From positions 297,942-361,941 of the forward strand of contig JAOAPE010000012.1 of NCBI GenBank assembly GCA_025462725.1: a DNA stretch of 64,000 bases, given 5' to 3'. The stretch is from Terriglobales bacterium (GTDB taxonomy: Bacteria > Acidobacteriota > Terriglobia > Terriglobales > Acidobacteriaceae). This document shows, in pieces, positions 49,569 to 56,647 of the stretch (the first letter of the stretch is position 1; every line of letters starts with the position of its first letter). Both the position numbers and the translations under genes were made by a program. Under the pieces are notes generated by a model. The model was not told the DNA's origin, made no database searches, and saw only the letters and a program-made list of their open reading frames with translations.

Positions 49569-50522
49569 CTAGTCGATCCGCGTGCCGTAGATAGGGATTT
49601 TTTGTTCCAGCAGATAGGCGAGGCGTTGCGCGCGCGCCGCCCAATCGCCAGGCAGTTGCGCATATTGCGTGATGATGCTCTGGCAAATAGCGGTGGATTT
49701 CTGCAGGGCTGTCGCCGCCTTTGCGTCTTCGTGCCGCTCTTTATATATGTCCACCAGCGCGCCTTGTCTCCAGGCGGCTTCATACAATGCTTCCCCCGCC
49801 TTGGGAGATTGCGGATGCTCACGCACGTATTTCTCGTACATCTCCGATTCATTCTCCGGGCACTTCGGCAGTCCCTGCCATTCGCCGCAGAGTTTGTTGT
49901 CGAGTCGGCTGAAGGCGGCCATGTCCGCCCATTTCGTATTGGGGAATTTCTTCTGCACCTGCTTCATGTGCTCTTCATCGATCTGGCCATGGAGCAACGG
50001 ATCGCGTTCTTTGGCGGAAGGGCGATTTCGCACATCACTCTTGTCGAGTTGCCAACGGATGTCCGCGCCGCGCCATAGTGCCTCACCAGCCAGAGGAGAC
50101 GTGGGGAAGTACTCCGCAGTGCGCTCATACAGCCGCAACGCATCCTGATCAGCGCCTTTTCGTCCGTGTCGCTGGCTGGCCTGCGCTTCGGAATCGACAG
50201 CCTCGCCAAAAAGAATCTTGTCGCCATTGGGCGTGTTCGGGCGGACAGCGCCTTTGTCGAGGATCCATCCGGTAACGCTCAACTCGCGATCGACATTGGC
50301 AAAGACCTTGATCCAGTCATGGCTCTTTTCCATGACGGCGATCTCGCGTCCGCGACCGACGGTGCCGAGCTTTTGCGAACTTGCATCCGGCGAAACAAAG
50401 AGATTGGCTTCGCGCACCATGATGCCGCGCTCGGTTTCCGCGAAGGCGGAGACGGCGAGCAAAACTAGAATGAGGGAAACAGAAAAATTTCGTAAGCGCA
50501 TATCCAAGAAAACACCGTTCAC
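49569..50522 (-). CDS. secreted protein with SH3-like domain and TPR-like repeats
   Basis: A 317-residue protein. GTG 50522 overlaps the stop of the upstream gene (GTGA) and has GGAG upstream; ATG 50501 is an alternative. A signal peptide (ending SAFAE) is followed by an SH3b-type domain (about 32-92, MVREANLFVSPDASSQKLGT, WIKVFANV, VTGWILDKG) and a helical tail with TPR-like spacing (about 120-310). SH3b domains bind peptidoglycan or proteins, fitting the wall-related neighbours uppP and amidase. Confidence 0.75.
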   Translation of the reverse strand: MNGVFLDMRLRNFSVSLILVLLAVSAFAETERGIMVREANLFVSPDASSQKLGTVGRGREIAVMEKSHDWIKVFANVDRELSVTGWILDKGAVRPNTPNGDKILFGEAVDSEAQASQRHGRKGADQDALRLYERTAEYFPTSPLAGEALWRGADIRWQLDKSDVRNRPSAKERDPLLHGQIDEEHMKQVQKKFPNTKWADMAAFSRLDNKLCGEWQGLPKCPENESEMYEKYVREHPQSPKAGEALYEAAWRQGALVDIYKERHEDAKAATALQKSTAICQSIITQYAQLPGDWAARAQRLAYLLEQKIPIYGTRID

Positions 50523-52254: not shown

Positions 52255-52260
52255 TCAGTT

Positions 52261-52272
52261 GGGGGTACCCCC
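52261..52272. repeat. perfect GC-rich palindrome GGGGGTACCCCC
   Basis: A 12-base perfect palindrome followed by more C and a CCCTCCCCC run, just after the amidase start. It stands at the left edge of the accessory patch. Confidence 0.6.
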
Positions 52273-52286
52273 CCTCCCCCTCGCTT

Positions 52287-52310
52287 TCGCAAAATATTGA
52301 AAACATTAGG
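52287..52310. repeat. AAAATATTGAAAA-type repeat at the left patch edge
   Basis: CGCAAAATATTGAAAACATT at the left boundary resembles two AAAATATAGAAA copies near 56512 and 56542 at the right boundary. I recall this AT-rich string as common in acidobacterial gaps. Confidence 0.4.
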
Positions 52311-52400
52311 TAAGCGGTGGAGGAAATCGCCAAACGAGATTATCCCTTTGACAAACCCACCTGTAAACGGTGGGCAATAAACAACTTACAGGAGACAAAA

Positions 52401-52589
52401 ATGAAAATATTCTGGCTAAACGGTAATGTGACCATTCAACCTGAGGATGGGCAAGAAGTTGAGGTGCTGTCTGCAATGTTTAGAGACAGCACCCCTGAAG
52501 TTCACAGTTTATTGGGATCGACCAATAAGTTCCGAGAGGACCAATCTGCCGACTCTATGACTAGCAATCTATCATCGGAATCAATGTAG
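52401..52589 (+). CDS. small hypothetical protein
   Basis: A 62-residue frame from ATG 52401 with AGGAG six bases upstream. The product starts MKIFWLNGNVTIQPEDGQEV, is acidic, and has no known domain. Its end overlaps the end of the Cas2-like gene on the other strand. It could be real because of its clean ribosome site. Confidence 0.5.
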   Translation: MKIFWLNGNVTIQPEDGQEVEVLSAMFRDSTPEVHSLLGSTNKFREDQSADSMTSNLSSESM

Positions 52590-52750
52590 TTCTTCAAGTC
52601 GTCCCTAAGAGCTGCTGTCGTTGTGTTCTCTCGTCTGAATGCCCAAACAGACAGAAGCACTCGCTGAGCCTTGTATTCTTTCAATCTTGCGAAAAGCTTT
52701 TCGTAATCCTTTGTTTTAATAAGATCGTAGGTGACATAGAACAGGGCCAT
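52502..52750 (-). CDS. Cas2-like small ferredoxin-fold protein
   Basis: An 82-residue protein from ATG 52750. It begins ALFYVTYDLIKTKDYEKLFA, like the first strand and helix of Cas2, with the conserved Asp after the first strand (YDL), then QRVLLSVWAFR and DDRLLVIESADWSS. Such Cas2-like genes exist outside CRISPR loci; no repeats or cas genes are near, so I do not call it a CRISPR adaptation gene. It may be a stand-alone nuclease, toxin or regulator. Confidence 0.65.
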   Translation of the reverse strand: MALFYVTYDLIKTKDYEKLFARLKEYKAQRVLLSVWAFRRENTTTAALRDDLKNYIDSDDRLLVIESADWSSRNLLVDPNKL

Positions 52751-52856
52751 TGGAAGCCTTTCTGGATTGGAATTGGGAAGCGGGCGGATTATACGCACCA
52801 AAGGCACGTTTCAAGCGGAAATCGCGGCTTGTCCTGTTTTCGGAAATCGCCACACT

Positions 52857-52884
52857 TTGATTCCCGACTGCAAACCCTTATAAT
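52857..52884 (+). promoter_or_regulatory. strong sigma-70-type promoter for the tRNA-like gene
   Basis: TTGATT (52857-52862) and a perfect TATAAT (52879-52884) with a 16-base spacer. The start of transcription would be a few bases before 52895, leaving a short leader for RNase P. Confidence 0.8.
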
Positions 52885-52894
52885 AGACAGTGTT

Positions 52895-53013
52895 GCCGGG
52901 GTGGTGTAATTGGCAGGCACGGCGGTCTCGAAGAGCATCCCAGCCCTGTTGTTGGGGTGTTGTTCAAACCGCTGCCGAAAGGCGTGAGGGTTCAAGTCCC
53001 TTCCCCGGCACCA
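52895..53013 (+). ncRNA. tRNA-like RNA with an extended anticodon arm (Leu/Ser-type)
   Basis: A 119-base gene with every landmark of a tRNA except the anticodon loop. Acceptor GCCGGGG (52895-52901) pairs with CCCCGGC (53003-53009), followed by A and encoded CCA. The D arm is Leu-like with G18-G19; the T arm is GAGGG / CCCTT around TTCAAGT; a class II variable arm GCC-GAAA-GGC is present. Between D and variable arms, instead of 17 bases, lie 53 that form one long hairpin: 52921-52926 with 52968-52973, internal loop, GAA with TTC (52930-52932 / 52963-52965), a G-G mismatch, and 52934-52942 with 52953-52961, capped by about ten bases. A spliced version (removing about 34 bases after CTCGAA) would give a seven-base loop with anticodon CGA. 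It has a strong promoter. Alternatives: a tRNA with a short intron, or a dedicated non-translating tRNA-like RNA. It is not a known class to me. Confidence 0.7.
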
Positions 53014-53085
53014 AGTTGTGTTACCCTCACCTTGCACACTTTTGAAGTCTAATGCATCCAACGGAGTGTGGGCAGGCTACCAAAG

Positions 53086-53292
53086 ATGAAGACCTTATTC
53101 CTTGCAGCGCAATCGAACGCCATGACTGGCGTTGCGCGTCTATTTGATTGGTCTGGGCATTTTGATTCCTACAATCAGAGTGCTACCCCTGCTGAAGCCG
53201 ATGCTCGCGCAATCTTTTCCGACTGGTACATGGTTGGGGAAGACCTACGGCTTGGTGCAGATGGAGTCGTTCGCAAGGACGACGACCGCTAA
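53086..53292 (+). CDS. small hypothetical protein upstream of the DUF2335 gene
   Basis: A 68-residue frame from ATG 53086, starting MKTLFLAAQSNAMTGVARLF. It has a short acidic body (ATPAEADARAIFSDWYMVGE) and a charged tail. It lies three bases before the DUF2335 gene and 70 bp after the tRNA-like RNA. Not recognised, but small proteins with this TPxxADARAIxSDW pattern are typical of mobile patches in my experience. Confidence 0.55.
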   Translation: MKTLFLAAQSNAMTGVARLFDWSGHFDSYNQSATPAEADARAIFSDWYMVGEDLRLGADGVVRKDDDR

Positions 53293-53295
53293 CCT

Positions 53296-53757
53296 GTGAG
53301 CCGCAGGAATCGCAACAACGATCCTCAGCACAGCATTGTCCGCAGTCAATCCGTGTCTGTAACTTTTTCCAGTCCCCTTCCGCCTCCCGGTCTCTTGAAG
53401 CAGTACGAAGAAGTGCAGCCGGGAATGGTAGATAAGATCATCGCTATGGCGGAGGTGCAAAGTGCTCACCGTCGCAGCTTAGAAACCACCGTCGTAGAAT
53501 CCAACGCCTTCGCGCAAAAAGTCTCCCCATTTCTCGGGAGTGCGGTCTTATTGGCGTGTTTGTATTTCGGATACAAGCTGGTATCCATGGGGCAGAATGC
53601 TTACGGAGTGGCCTTGATGTTCGGTGCAATTGCATCGGTGGTGGGAATCACGGTCTGGGGAAAGATCAGCTACCGTAACGATTTGAAGGGTGGAGCAGAT
53701 GCATTCAACAAAGCCGCGCAAGAAGCTATGAACCCGGAACGTCAATTAGTGGAATAA
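53296..53757 (+). CDS. DUF2335 membrane protein
   Basis: A 153-residue protein from GTG 53296. The family mark LPPPGLLKQYEEVQPGMVDK is followed by a helix with EVQSAHRRSLE and two transmembrane helices (about 80-97 and 102-122, VSPFLGSAVLLACLYFGY, AYGVALMFGAIASVVGITVW). DUF2335 proteins are small two-helix membrane proteins, sometimes thought holin-like. A bidirectional terminator follows. Confidence 0.8.
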   Translation: MSRRNRNNDPQHSIVRSQSVSVTFSSPLPPPGLLKQYEEVQPGMVDKIIAMAEVQSAHRRSLETTVVESNAFAQKVSPFLGSAVLLACLYFGYKLVSMGQNAYGVALMFGAIASVVGITVWGKISYRNDLKGGADAFNKAAQEAMNPERQLVE

Positions 53758-53760
53758 AAA

Positions 53761-53784
53761 GCCCACCTACTCGGTGGGCTTTTT
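53761..53784. terminator. bidirectional rho-independent terminator
   Basis: GCCCACC (53761-53767) pairs with GGTGGGC (53773-53779) around TACTC, with five A before and five T after. It ends both the DUF2335 transcript (plus) and the four-gene PIN operon (minus); the last minus-strand gene stops inside its stem. Confidence 0.92.
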
Positions 53785-53901
53785 CATGTGTCGCTGAATT
53801 GCTGCGAGTCTGGCAGAGATGAGCAATAGCACGCCTACTCCTGCCCACACACCCAGCAGTAGCAGTCCAAACATTACATCCATCGCCTGGAGTGTGATCA
53901 C
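53767..53901 (-). CDS. 44-residue single-pass membrane protein (fourth gene of the PIN operon)
   Basis: Start GTG 53901 overlaps the stop of the preceding mini-gene (GTGA); an internal ATG at codon 7 is possible. The product (MITLQAMDVMFGLLLLGVWA, then GVGVLLLISARLAAIQRHMK) has one strong hydrophobic helix. Its stop lies within the terminator stem. No known family. Confidence 0.6.
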   Translation of the reverse strand: MITLQAMDVMFGLLLLGVWAGVGVLLLISARLAAIQRHMKKPTE

Positions 53902-54020
53902 TTTTTCGCCTTCTTCTTTAGGGGCTTCTTCTTTTCTGGCTTCGTCTGCAAAGCAGCAGAGATCGCATCCTCAAACTTGAGCGGGATGTGTGGAATCAGT
54001 TTTTCCGATTTCTTCTTCAT
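53898..54020 (-). CDS. 40-residue Lys-rich mini-protein (third gene of the PIN operon)
   Basis: Start ATG 54020 overlaps the PIN stop (ATGA). Product: MKKKSEKLIPHIPLKFEDAI followed by a helix and a poly-Lys tail (KPEKKKPLKKKAKK). This layout, a short LIPxIPLxFEDA segment then a basic tail, recalls small proteins found beside PIN-like genes in other bacteria. It could bind nucleic acid or the PIN protein. Confidence 0.65.
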   Translation of the reverse strand: MKKKSEKLIPHIPLKFEDAISAALQTKPEKKKPLKKKAKK

Positions 54021-54535
54021 TCTGATGCACCTTGAACAGCAGCCCCCAGCGCAAGGTAAGGAGCATCCGATAGTGGCTCGTGAATAGGGAATTTTGTTTC
54101 AGTTAGTTCTGAGTATTTACTCAGTGCGGGGTCGTACGTATGAAAGGCAGCTACTTTTAGCTTGTCTGCTGATGCAAGATGGATTGCATCAGCAGGCTTT
54201 AGATTCCAGCCGTTTGGAATTCCAGCCCGCATCAATAATTGAGCCTTCCTTCCAATTTCTTCGTAGAACTCCACCAGTTCAATTGGAGAACCGGCAACCC
54301 ATAAATTTGATATGGCCGCTTCGCTATCTGCATCCAATGCCTTATTGTCTTGCTCAATTTTTGCCCATGCAATTTCAACGATGCTCAAAGTGGAAGTAAT
54401 GAGATGAAACTCTTTGTTGCGTGCTTGCTTCATCATGGCTTCAATGTGTGGAAGTCTATCCACATGTCCATTGATGTAAGACAAGGGAACGCAAGCATCC
54501 CAGTAGATTACTTTGAGTCCATCATTATTGAGCAT
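54017..54535 (-). CDS. PIN-domain protein (VapC-like ribonuclease)
   Basis: A 172-residue PIN domain with the acidic site intact: D13 in VIYWDACVPLSY, E54 in SIVEIAW, D116 in PADAIHLASA and D135 in HTYDPALSK. Such proteins are metal-dependent RNases, many being VapC toxins. Its start lies inside the end of the 263-residue gene (11-base overlap), and its stop overlaps the next mini-gene. No classic VapB antitoxin is adjacent; the 263-residue protein or the Lys-rich mini-protein may take that part. Confidence 0.87.
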   Translation of the reverse strand: MLNNDGLKVIYWDACVPLSYINGHVDRLPHIEAMMKQARNKEFHLITSTLSIVEIAWAKIEQDNKALDADSEAAISNLWVAGSPIELVEFYEEIGRKAQLLMRAGIPNGWNLKPADAIHLASADKLKVAAFHTYDPALSKYSELTETKFPIHEPLSDAPYLALGAAVQGASE

Positions 54536-55316
54536 CGCGTAGCCTTCTTATAGCCTCTTCGGGCGACATCCCGCTCAGCGATGGCGCAGAGCTTCGTGCT
54601 TTCTCGTATTCGTACCCTGTGTGCGGATCTGGCTGTGGGGAAATATTTGCGATGTGTCGAACAGAAATAGGTCTCCCATTGCCAGGGTCACGCGCTATCA
54701 GGCCTTCAACCAGTACCATCTTTCCCCAAACATCTCTCAGCAATTCCTCTTGTCCCTCTTCGATGTAACAGGAAACTGCTTTATCGTTGAGAAGATCGAA
54801 CAGCGTAAAGCGTAGCCCCCCTCGATTCGTGAGGGTTTGCACTCTGCCTTTTATCCCGCCGTACGCTGGTTTCGGGTGTGGCAGAACAAGATTCTTTATT
54901 GCGGTAGGAAGCGCGAGAATAGGCGCAAGCACCGCAGGTTTATTTAACATAACTGTGGATTCTGTAACTGGAGTCTCGAATCTCACAGCTCTAACTCTGC
55001 GGTCAGATATGGAAACAACTTTATTGGCGACGTTACCTATTCTAGGCGAGTATGGAATTGCAGTTCTGGATTCCAAAGAGGAACCAACCCTAGAGTAAGC
55101 CTCAACAACGCGAGCGGTGGCTTCAGGGTTCTCTCTGCTTCGGACGGTTGCAACCGAGCTGCTGTACTGAAGGTCATCTATCACCCAATCCAATTGCGAT
55201 CCGCCCACCTCTTCGGAAAGAGCATTGACCAGTTCATTGAAGTTCGCAATAGCATTGGCGAACTCAGAGAGGGGAACCTCTCCGTCAAGCACGAGAGTGA
55301 CAGTATCAAGGGCCAT
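54525..55316 (-). CDS. unknown protein, first gene of the PIN operon
   Basis: A 263-residue protein from ATG 55316 with GGAGG upstream. The N-terminal half (about 1-120) is alpha/beta with ALDTVTLVLDGEVPLSEFAN at its start. The C-terminal half looks like an OB-fold: YIEEGQEELLRDVWGKMVLV then GLIARDPGNGRPISVRHIAN. No helix-turn-helix is seen. A palindrome at 55333-55349 lies directly upstream. It could be an antitoxin, a DNA or RNA-binding regulator, or a sensor for the PIN protein. Confidence 0.7.
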   Translation of the reverse strand: MALDTVTLVLDGEVPLSEFANAIANFNELVNALSEEVGGSQLDWVIDDLQYSSSVATVRSRENPEATARVVEAYSRVGSSLESRTAIPYSPRIGNVANKVVSISDRRVRAVRFETPVTESTVMLNKPAVLAPILALPTAIKNLVLPHPKPAYGGIKGRVQTLTNRGGLRFTLFDLLNDKAVSCYIEEGQEELLRDVWGKMVLVEGLIARDPGNGRPISVRHIANISPQPDPHTGYEYEKARSSAPSLSGMSPEEAIRRLRDAQ

Positions 55317-55332
55317 AGCAGTGCCTCCGCAT

Positions 55333-55349
55333 GGTACACTAAATGTACC
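55333..55349. promoter_or_regulatory. operator-like palindrome upstream of the PIN operon
   Basis: GGTACA-CTAAA-TGTACC is a perfect inverted repeat with 6-base arms, 16 bp before the first start codon. Its place fits autoregulation as in toxin-antitoxin operons. Confidence 0.55.
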
Positions 55350-55397
55350 GTGCGCTATCAGGATGTTCCCGCACCCTGCTTACCACTATGATTTTAT

Positions 55398-55421
55398 AAG
55401 GCTCACCTCTAGGTGAGCCTT
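55398..55421. terminator. rho-independent terminator-like hairpin
   Basis: AAGGCTCACC pairs with GGTGAGCCTT around TCTA. It lies between the transposase stop (minus strand) and the upstream region of the PIN operon; a T-rich tail follows on both strands in part. Confidence 0.7.
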
Positions 55422-55497
55422 TCCTCTTGCATCTTCTTCTTCCACATCCACCGACTCATTGGCTTAGGTGGTTCAAACAGATCAAGCTGCTGCTTCC

Positions 55498-56445
55498 CTA
55501 TGCGGAAGTAGCGTTCCTTGAGTCCCGAAGTTGAAGCCTCTTGTTTTCGATTCCAGCCAGAGCCAGCATCGTGCGGTTTGCATCTTTGATCTTCCGATTG
55601 TTGTAACGGAAATCAAACTCTGCCAGATAGCGGTGTAAGTGCTGACTTCCCACTTGGTGGTACACGCCCGTTATGCCGCGCTTCAAAGTTCCGAAGTATC
55701 CCTCAATCGTGTTTGTATGAACTCGCGTTCCGTCTGCTGCTGTACGTGCATACTCTTCTTTGGAATGATTGATTACCTCATGCCGTTTGAAACGTGCGCC
55801 TACGCCATCGTAAGAAGAAAAGCCATCCGTCATTACAAGCGCGGTCTGCTTTACGTTCTTTCGCAGGATGCCCACTAGGTTGTCAGCGGTCACGCGTTCA
55901 ACGTGGAAAGATCGCACATCTCCGTTGCGCTGGACTACTGCGAAAACTGGCTGTTTATGGCTGTACGCATCCGGTCTGCCCTTGCCACCGCGATTCTTAC
56001 GCTTTCCACCAACATAGGTTTCATCGGCTTCAACGATGCCCTTAAGTTTGTCGGTGAATGATGGCTGGCTCATCGCGTATCGAACACGGTGAGCCATAAA
56101 CCACGCAGTCTTATAAGTCACACCCAACATGCGATGCAGTTGATGTGCGCTCATACCTTTTTTGGAAGAGCAGAGCAGGTGAAAAGCCAGCAGCCATTTG
56201 TTTAGCGGGATGTGGCTATCTTCAAAGAGTGTGCCGATCGTGACGGTGAACTGCTCACGGCAATCCTTGCACTTGTAAACACCGAGACGCACGGACTTCT
56301 TGGAGCCTTCTTTCGGCTGCAACTTGTAAGCCTCTTTGCAATTGCAATGAGGACAAACAGGGCCATTCGGCCAACGCATAGCTTCAAGAAACTCTCTTGC
56401 TTTTTCGCTGTCTTGGAAGTGTGGGCTAGTGCTAATATCGAACAT
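55498..56445 (-). CDS. IS1595-family (ISXO2-like) transposase
   Basis: About 315 residues from ATG 56445 (MFDISTSPHF). The N-terminus has a zinc ribbon with CPHC and CKDC. The DDE domain carries Asp in VEADETYVGG, Asp in VMTDGFSSYDG and the end in HTNTIEGYFGTLKRGITGVY. It moves DNA by cut-and-paste. I could not find clear terminal inverted repeats or a target duplication, so the element may be trimmed. It stands at the right end of the accessory patch. Confidence 0.92.
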   Translation of the reverse strand: MFDISTSPHFQDSEKAREFLEAMRWPNGPVCPHCNCKEAYKLQPKEGSKKSVRLGVYKCKDCREQFTVTIGTLFEDSHIPLNKWLLAFHLLCSSKKGMSAHQLHRMLGVTYKTAWFMAHRVRYAMSQPSFTDKLKGIVEADETYVGGKRKNRGGKGRPDAYSHKQPVFAVVQRNGDVRSFHVERVTADNLVGILRKNVKQTALVMTDGFSSYDGVGARFKRHEVINHSKEEYARTAADGTRVHTNTIEGYFGTLKRGITGVYHQVGSQHLHRYLAEFDFRYNNRKIKDANRTMLALAGIENKRLQLRDSRNATSA

Positions 56446-56511
56446 GCTTTGTACCTTGAAGAACACTATAGGGCAAAGCAATTGGGTTTGTCAAGTATAT
56501 AATTACGTCGC

Positions 56512-56554
56512 CAAAATATAGAAAGCAAACCAGTTACATACGAAAATATAGAAA
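56512..56554. repeat. two AAAATATAGAAA direct repeats in an AT-rich gap
   Basis: Copies start near 56512 and 56542, about 30 bp apart, followed by AAAGGAG and a nine-codon frame from ATG 56566 (SRLKLTVS) that may be a gene stub. The gap 56482-56647 otherwise holds no gene. Confidence 0.5.
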
Positions 56555-56647
56555 AGAAAGGAGTTATGTCTCGCTTAAAATTAACTGTTAGTTAATATTA
56601 CGCAATGAAGTATATCTATTTACCCGATTGTTGTCAAGCGAAAACAG

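Follow-up and report, generated by a model that had tools for sequence, protein, structure and literature searches.

A transposon-borne tRNA-Leu-like RNA of Terriglobales with a rod-like hairpin in place of the anticodon arm

The window analysed here is the whole 64,000-nucleotide stretch of DNA from a Terriglobales bacterium, and it contains at 52895–53013 on the + strand (host coordinates G000:C56:350836-350954) a gene for a tRNA-Leu-like RNA with a rod-like anticodon arm, recognized by its fold, by covariation with relatives and by an RF00005 score of 41.4 bits. In what follows, G-numbers denote genomes (G000 being the host) and L-numbers denote fetched loci or contigs. The gene is cargo of an IS1595-type element of 4173 bp (52335–56507), placed 560 nt inward of its left end. 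The left terminal inverted repeat (52335–52359, + strand; CGAGATTATCCCTTTGACAAACCCA) is 77% identical over 26 nt to the reverse complement of the right one (56483–56507, − strand), and both share TTGACAAACCCA. Immediately outside lies an exact 8-bp target-site duplication, TCGCCAAA, at 52327–52334 and 56508–56515, whose sole further copy on the + strand of the scanned 20.2-kb stretch is at 50203. The target duplications of the IS1595 family are 8 bp long. The 327-aa transposase (55498–56481, − strand; PF12762, E 6.7e-39; PF12760, E 2.5e-14) is of the IS1595 family as well, combining DDE_Tnp_IS1595 with a zinc ribbon. The initial annotation had described the tRNA-like gene without this setting and missed the transposon together with its PIN module.

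The module consists of a 172-aa VapC-like PIN-domain nuclease (54017–54535, − strand; PF01850, E 4.5e-10) and a 263-aa partner protein (54525–55316, − strand), whose gene overlaps the PIN gene by 11 bases and which aligns with the partners in L258 and L201. Also within the element are a small ORF behind a ribosome-binding-site-like AGGAG (52401–52589, + strand; listed with an earlier GTG start at 52317), a 101-aa Cas2-like protein (52502–52807, − strand; PF09827, E 2.9e-9; phrog_1090, E 6.4e-18), a 74-aa ORF that is an ORF call alone (53068–53292, + strand) and a 153-aa DUF2335 membrane protein (53296–53757, + strand; PF10097, E 1.6e-11). The transposon-borne Cas2-like gene lies 87 bp from the tRNA-like gene.

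Within G100, a genome of the same genus, the flanks of the window element lie 201 bp apart, as compared with 217 in the joined empty site, at 79% and 75% identity and with an unaligned middle, and three copies of the dispersed repeat that the element entered, located elsewhere in the same genome, continue across the joined, element-free site. This repeat, some 120–170 bp long, surrounds the element (window about 52260–52334 and 56516–56620); the host genome contains eight further matches to it, and additional ones occur in related genomes of the genus. The same arrangement is found in G164 and G205, with their own inverted repeats and, by eye, the duplications CTAGGTAGG and ATATTTTTA; the core shared by the window repeats recurs in G205. 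The G164 element and L258, an IMG/VR contig with phage-like neighbours, have 2965 bp in common at 99.93% identity, and the G164 element is mobile, because this copy has different flanks and another duplication, CAAAGTAG. Element ends were looked for around the gene in G116, G161, G108, G063 and G038 and none were found, G116 having a transposase fragment only. About 760–3350 nt upstream of the tRNA-like gene on G108:C12 there is an IS1595-type element that has inverted repeats of its own as well as a 9-bp duplication, CACCCCATC; this element adjoins the gene without enclosing it.

The predicted window RNA has a 7-bp acceptor stem and a 5-bp T stem, both normal, a D arm whose stem is formed by three standard pairs and one U-G, and a class II variable arm (52974–52983, + strand) of 3 bp with a GAAA loop, the helix of which is paired in 100% of cells across ten members. 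It is without an anticodon loop, and a 51-nt, 19-bp hairpin (52922–52972, + strand) occupies that place, folding into 5 bp, a 3x2 internal loop, 3 bp, a G.G mismatch, 11 bp and a 6-nt loop. The initial annotation had proposed an arm of 53 bases and about 18 pairs; the giant hairpin stands, and its size is revised to the values given here. The arms of the cloverleaf, the encoded CCA and the tertiary bases that it had read (T8, A14, G18, G19, T54, T55, C56 and A58) were all confirmed by fold and by sequence reading. Together with A73, the class II cloverleaf and the D- and T-loop bases are those of a tRNA-Leu. The whole RNA folds at −59.4 kcal/mol (z −4.52; 0 of 200 dinucleotide shuffles equally good), and the arm folded by itself has a z of −5.72 against dinucleotide shuffles.

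Neither ARAGORN at default settings nor an Rfam scan of the window listed the gene. It was found at 41.4 bits, with a family cut-off of 29, when the whole genome was searched with the tRNA family, and ARAGORN with introns allowed reported a tRNA-Glu(UUC) carrying an intron of 34 nt, a choice among several excisions that are possible. The gene finders used missed or misnamed the window gene, so more such genes may lie unseen. Ending 10 nt upstream of the gene is a sigma-70-type promoter-like site, TTGATT-N16-TATAAT (52857–52884, + strand), which agrees with the consensus at 10 of 12 bases, a match and not a proof. The promoter claimed by the initial annotation is therefore there as a consensus match, and a single site of this kind in the scanned kilobase is near chance (0.7 expected), though −10 boxes are enriched among the members: a box with at least five of six bases lies directly upstream in 6 of 10, where 0.85 are expected (0 of 2000 shuffles). 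A scan for terminator-like sites gave none where the window gene ends.

Ten distinct members of this long-arm class were collected, eight from one acidobacterial family (the window, G063, G161, G164, G108, G038, G205 and G116) and two from Chloroflexota (L153 and L202). A decayed copy, G229, is excluded from the ten-member counts, and the loci number 11 when it is included. A single-sequence covariance model run over 398 family genomes returned five other genes of 113–119 nt among many ordinary tRNA-Leu genes of 84–89 nt; a six-sequence model run over 397 genomes of the order, mostly of the same family, added G161, G116 and the decayed G229; and a plain pattern over the 398 family genomes recovered seven of the nine carriers. 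Carriers thus amount to at least 9 of 398 family genomes, a lower bound, as with these models about the best 9–12 candidates per genome were scored. The models and patterns are built on Leu bodies, and exclusive use of Leu bodies cannot be read from such counts.

A pattern scan of species genomes added the two Chloroflexota genes among the matches listed, and one of viral contigs added L258, the same gene as in G164; L201 is the same locus as genome G116. Genomes and viral contigs together yielded at least 150 pattern matches (at least 120 from genomes). A 6-of-7 acceptor stem is present in 34 of the matches listed. By eye, four of them (L153, L202, L201 and L258) belong to the long-arm class; the remainder appear to be neighbouring tRNAs, assemblies that are duplicated or joined by Ns, genes with long variable arms, chance matches or the loop-insert class described below. 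Long-arm genes are present in 7 of 24 pattern-bearing family genomes, the other 17 being judged by letters alone. A second viral scan (19 contigs) gave six new loci, none at long-arm score. When 297 genomes of the phylum were searched with model R3, 51 matches in 46 genomes were listed, of which the window gene alone exceeded 84 bits and the others were 84–89 nt long; the other eight family carriers are absent from these matches, either not drawn or missed. A DNA search matched 72 of 100 family genomes, the host in full and the others mostly in the variable arm, T arm and acceptor end, and the 30 loci fetched from it were mostly ordinary tRNA-Leu by ARAGORN. In four other genomes of the genus (71–84% complete), DNA search gave ordinary tRNA-Leu in three, nothing in one and no long-arm gene. 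The phage and plasmid collections returned 3 and 16 records covering 13–23% of the query.

Folded singly, the arms of the ten members form 17–21 bp in 44–52 nt, with at least 18 pairs in nine of ten and z values from −3.7 to −7.3, and their sequences differ from one another. Paired cells made up 94.6% of the six-sequence alignment and 93.0% of the ten-sequence alignment, with double-sided changes at 29 of 38 pairs in both. The ten-sequence set has 105 doubly changed cells against 34.3 in shuffles, 0 of 500 shuffles reached any of the five observed covariation measures, and sliding the partners by 1–3 columns lowered the paired cells from 93.0% to 41–45%. Fitting these alignments to the structure biases them in its favour, but the singly folded arms also give 17–21 pairs. 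Pairing is complete in the inner stem of the arm (100% of cells) and reaches 87.3% in the distal helix, and pair 13-22 is unpaired in 9 of 10 members. Without constraints, the whole RNA folds best as a cloverleaf in three members, namely the window, G108 and L202; among the other seven, parts of the D and T arms pair otherwise. Unmodified tRNAs often pair their D and T arms otherwise in unconstrained folds. The initial annotation had held that a lack of homologues, or homologues with arms breaking pairing at random, would mark a decayed pseudogene. Covariance-model searches instead found homologues whose arms covary, with compensatory changes in both arm and body across ten sequences, and the arm shows signs of being kept as a helix by selection.

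The Leu-like character of the body, suggested by the initial annotation, is borne out by A73 in 10 of 10 members and by bodies up to 88% identical to ordinary tRNA-Leu. U8 is likewise present in all ten, and CCA is encoded in seven (G038, G108 and G116 are without it). Leucine identity in E. coli is described as resting on A73 and the D/T-loop contacts G18:U55, G19-C56 and U54:A58, with the anticodon not used; the anticodon arm is dispensable for leucine charging and is needed for LeuRS editing (PMC9976931). By analogy, the members are likely chargeable with leucine. Without the arm, the bodies of G063, G161, G164 and G108 are mutually 82–92% identical and at most 79% identical to 41 ordinary tRNA-Leu bodies. 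Those of the window, G038, G205, G116, L153 and L202 are 84–88% identical to an ordinary tRNA-Leu and at most 80% to other long-arm members. A body tree from 51 short columns and a short search requires four label changes, at least three of them forced by starred branches, against an average of 9.3 for shuffled labels; the long-arm bodies cluster more than shuffling would give. A repeated conversion of tRNA-Leu genes to the long-arm form, with several origins, is suggestive only, because the columns are few and the ordinary bodies, being more numerous than the long-arm ones, are the likelier nearest neighbours.

We then asked what could be decoded if part of the arm were removed. Each contiguous stretch whose removal leaves a 7-nt loop was excised singly, giving eight options per member, and a Leu anticodon appeared in 0 of 10 members (80 excisions); a 7-nt anticodon loop with a Leu anticodon was thus present neither directly nor after one excision. 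The same test on four tRNA-Leu-like genes with inserts in the loop (L147, L152, L171 and L240) gave a Leu anticodon in 4 of 4, so the test is able to succeed. The product Ser(CGA), which the initial annotation had derived from a short helical intron, is one excision option in one member, and the same option gives Tyr, Ser, Asn, Gly, Gln or Pro elsewhere. That proposal failed, since the letters of the 5' side of the loop vary, no Leu anticodon is obtained by excision and no RtcB was found in the host; a Ser identity was rejected too, in view of A73, the Leu-like body and the several excisions of which CGA is merely one. Its other proposal, a tRNA-like RNA unable to decode, is supported by the lack of an anticodon loop and the conservation of the arm as a helix. 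The loop-insert genes (L147:135-247, − strand; L152:6074-6186, + strand; L171:1380-1487, + strand; L240:196-301, − strand) come from Planctomycetota, Obscuribacter and a viral contig and have 21 or 26 extra nt in the anticodon arm, and one excision restores Leu CAA or UAG. They are candidates for very short bacterial tRNA introns, a class distinct from the long-arm genes.

The host genome (4.33 Mb) has 48 matches in the tRNA-family search, two of them in the window and the other 46 covered by 40 fetched stretches. All five ordinary kinds of tRNA-Leu are present (UAG, UAA, CAA, CAG and GAG), so the window RNA is dispensable there for leucine decoding, and tRNA-Ser occurs with GGA, GCU, UGA and CGA. 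The Ser-CGA and Leu-CAA tRNAs that the initial annotation had suggested looking for are therefore both there as ordinary tRNAs. Two odd tRNA-like stretches were noted in the host under L060 (G000:C56:131370-131590): one is a partial match to positions 10–63 of the tRNA model, and the other has a Leu-like body, reads GUC (Asp) and lacks an encoded CCA.

In 6 of 9 acidobacterial loci, a PIN or DUF4411 gene is located no more than 1.5 kb from the RNA. The PIN is of the PF01850 type in the window, G164, G116 (by similarity) and G205, and of the DUF4411 type, with a partner that has a Peptidase_M78 domain, in G108 and G161 (the latter by similarity to G108). In G164, G116, G108 and G161 the PIN gene is convergent with the RNA gene, its stop codon lying about 10 nt from the RNA's 3' end or overlapping the last 1–2 bases, and these four abutting genes represent two PIN/partner classes that are unrelated to each other. 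The PIN genes of the window and G205 start 1.0–1.3 kb away from the end of the RNA. Profiles made from the proteins of the members and of kindred PIN genes matched within 1.5 kb at 5 of 11 member loci and at 1 of 79 control loci; given the source of the profiles, this control is partly circular. The G205 PIN gene runs past the 1.5-kb cut of this comparison, the control loci lie nearly all around ordinary tRNA-Leu genes, with several being the same tRNA fetched twice, and L008, the one control locus with a profile hit, contains just a truncated match at a contig end. No PIN gene was recognised by BLAST, by profiles or by a partial Pfam scan of the neighbours at the other 5 of 11 loci (G063, G038, the decayed G229, L153 and L202). 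L202 is flanked by a phage portal gene on one side and a terminase-like gene on the other, G063 is near an Eco57I-type methylase and a Y2_Tnp transposase, and G038 is near a replication-relaxation protein.

The partner protein has no match in Pfam or PADLOC, and its predicted structure (mean pLDDT 49.8) is too poor for use. Among 300 family genomes, eight have a match to the partner gene, which in one case is a 67-residue piece containing a stop, and three of the eight genomes carry the RNA (the host, G116 and G164). At L281:5784-8292, L283:6038-8411 and L284:4658-7290 an IS1595-type transposase, the partner and the PIN gene stand together with no detectable tRNA-like gene; the L284 element has inverted repeats and the duplication TTAAAGAG, and L282 has PIN and partner. 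To judge from these gene contents, the RNA is an optional part of the PIN-bearing element, because just three of eight partner-bearing genomes carry it and L281, L283 and L284 are without a detectable copy. The motif CC(C/T)CAGAACAAG stands before the tRNA-like gene in G116 and G164 and beside the PIN stop codon in L281, which is without the RNA, and is perhaps a trace of gain or loss of the RNA gene.

Comparison with known systems places the RNA near several of them. It shares the acceptor, D, variable and T arms and A73 of the class II bacterial tRNA-Leu, but has a hairpin of 17–21 bp and no anticodon loop in place of a 5-bp stem and 7-nt loop. Natural tRNAs with odd arms are likewise represented by allo-tRNA, selC* tRNA-Cys and tRNA-Pyl, and allo-tRNA genes also occur in Acidobacteria; these have longer acceptor or anticodon stems and keep the anticodon (PMC7609411), whereas the members keep normal 7-bp acceptor and 5-bp T stems and have lost the anticodon loop. 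The anticodon stem of tRNA-Pyl has 6 instead of 5 bp, the anticodon arm being otherwise closely conserved in size, and the definition of allo-tRNA comprises an acceptor domain of 12 bp (8/4 or 9/3) together with SerRS identity elements (PMC7609411). With its 7-bp acceptor stem, 5-bp T stem and A73, the window RNA is not an allo-tRNA.

The PIN side of the locus resembles VapBC and other PIN toxin–antitoxin modules in that a PIN nuclease is encoded with an overlapping upstream partner gene, and differs in that the partner has no family match and a tRNA-like RNA is adjacent. To our knowledge, a tRNA-like RNA is not known as part of VapBC. In type III toxin–antitoxin systems, an RNA antitoxin of short direct repeats lies upstream of a ToxN/AbiQ-type nuclease; the window has a single tRNA-like RNA convergent with the PIN gene, and this class was rejected. 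Toxin–antitoxin genes are also carried inside Tn3-family transposons (PMC7157771), while here the element is of the IS1595 type with an RNA gene as cargo. In CreTA, an addiction module likewise works through tRNA by means of a small RNA, CreT sequestering a tRNA via codons (PMC8501985), whereas here the RNA itself resembles a tRNA. In the literature searched, with subscription papers and preprints mostly outside it, we found no tRNA with a rod replacing the anticodon arm, no tRNA-like RNA in a PIN or IS1595 element and no such addiction or anti-nuclease device. Taken as a whole, the RNA fails a defining test of every known RNA kind considered; its body is a tRNA-Leu variant and its carrier an IS1595 element.

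Together, our results make it very probable that the tRNA-like gene is conserved, non-decoding and mobile. VapC-type PIN toxins are anticodon-loop nucleases, and one of them also cleaves a variable loop and is able to cut phage tRNAs (PMC13273310). As the best explanation, though a tentative one, we propose that the RNA is an uncleavable tRNA decoy or partner in the PIN module of the element. The RNA would be transcribed from its own promoter and cut by RNase P, with CCA added or retained, and would fold as an L in which the lower limb, normally of five pairs, has almost fourfold that number. It could then be leucylated, since bacterial LeuRS ignores the anticodon. The PIN nuclease may bind the tRNA body and, with the loop buried in a helix, fail to cleave it, the weaker step of the model. 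The RNA might thereby buffer or control the nuclease, or the nuclease might use it as a sensor, and in this way it would help the element to persist in the host or prophage. The wider claim, that mobile elements have repeatedly made tRNA-Leu genes into anticodon-less, leucine-chargeable rods that serve as the RNA part (a tRNA-mimic antitoxin or decoy) of PIN modules, is doubtful.

A chargeable, non-decoding leucyl-tRNA mimic could also serve mobile elements independently of the PIN module, either as a decoy, aimed at host anticodon nucleases or at other proteins that handle tRNA, or as a leucine donor for a transferase. This reading, rather unlikely in our view, would fit the five of 11 loci without a recognised PIN gene, the phage or mobile-type neighbours at L202, G063 and G038 and the A73 kept by every Leu body, but the PIN genes of two unrelated classes that abut the RNA would go unexplained, and no aminoacyl-transferase was seen among the neighbours scanned. 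Those same abutting, convergent genes in four loci, and the very stable structure of the RNA, would suit a device acting in cis, with hairpins that insulate or terminate between convergent genes or a transcript antisense to the end of the PIN mRNA. However, a mere terminator needs no full tRNA body, A73, T-loop or CCA (7 of 10), the window gene has no terminator-like site at its end and a PIN gene at least 1.0 kb off, as in G205, and 6 of 10 members have their own −10 box; a cis-acting role is improbable.

A tRNA with a very short helical intron, spliced to a working tRNA, would account for the normal YU start of the anticodon loop in 10 of 10 members and the AA at its end in 9 of 10, and the loop-insert genes suggest that intron-like inserts do occur in bacterial tRNA-Leu. 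Against it stand the excision test (0 of 10 members, versus 4 of 4 loop-insert genes), the ordinary Leu and Ser tRNAs of the host, including Ser(CGA), and two features of splicing. The host gave no match to RtcB, a check proposed by the initial annotation, as against matches in 9 of 14 control genomes. A canonical bulge-helix-bulge consists of two 3-nt bulges around 4 bp; the window arm has none, and shows a 3x2 internal loop, 3 bp and a 1x1 mismatch instead. The intron reading was rejected on the failure to restore a Leu anticodon and the lack of RtcB, and we consider it very improbable. A tRNA pseudogene with a chance hairpin insertion would be in keeping with the rarity of the gene, with its not being found in the four sister genomes, with the decaying copy G229 and with an unconstrained cloverleaf in just three of ten members; it was rejected by the covariation, the compensatory changes in arm and body and the −10 boxes speaking against it, and is scarcely credible. 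The window RNA is thus unlikely to be an intron-bearing or decayed tRNA, because its arms covary, no Leu anticodon is obtained by excision, no RtcB was found and the host has five ordinary tRNA-Leu.

Under the preferred reading, in which the RNA is a decoy or partner in the PIN module, it offers a testable candidate for an RNA partner of transposon-borne PIN nucleases. It may also provide a chassis for a charged, non-decoding tRNA. To retain a tRNA body but exchange its decoding end, with apparent selection on the new part in several elements, would amount to a natural separation of charging from decoding.
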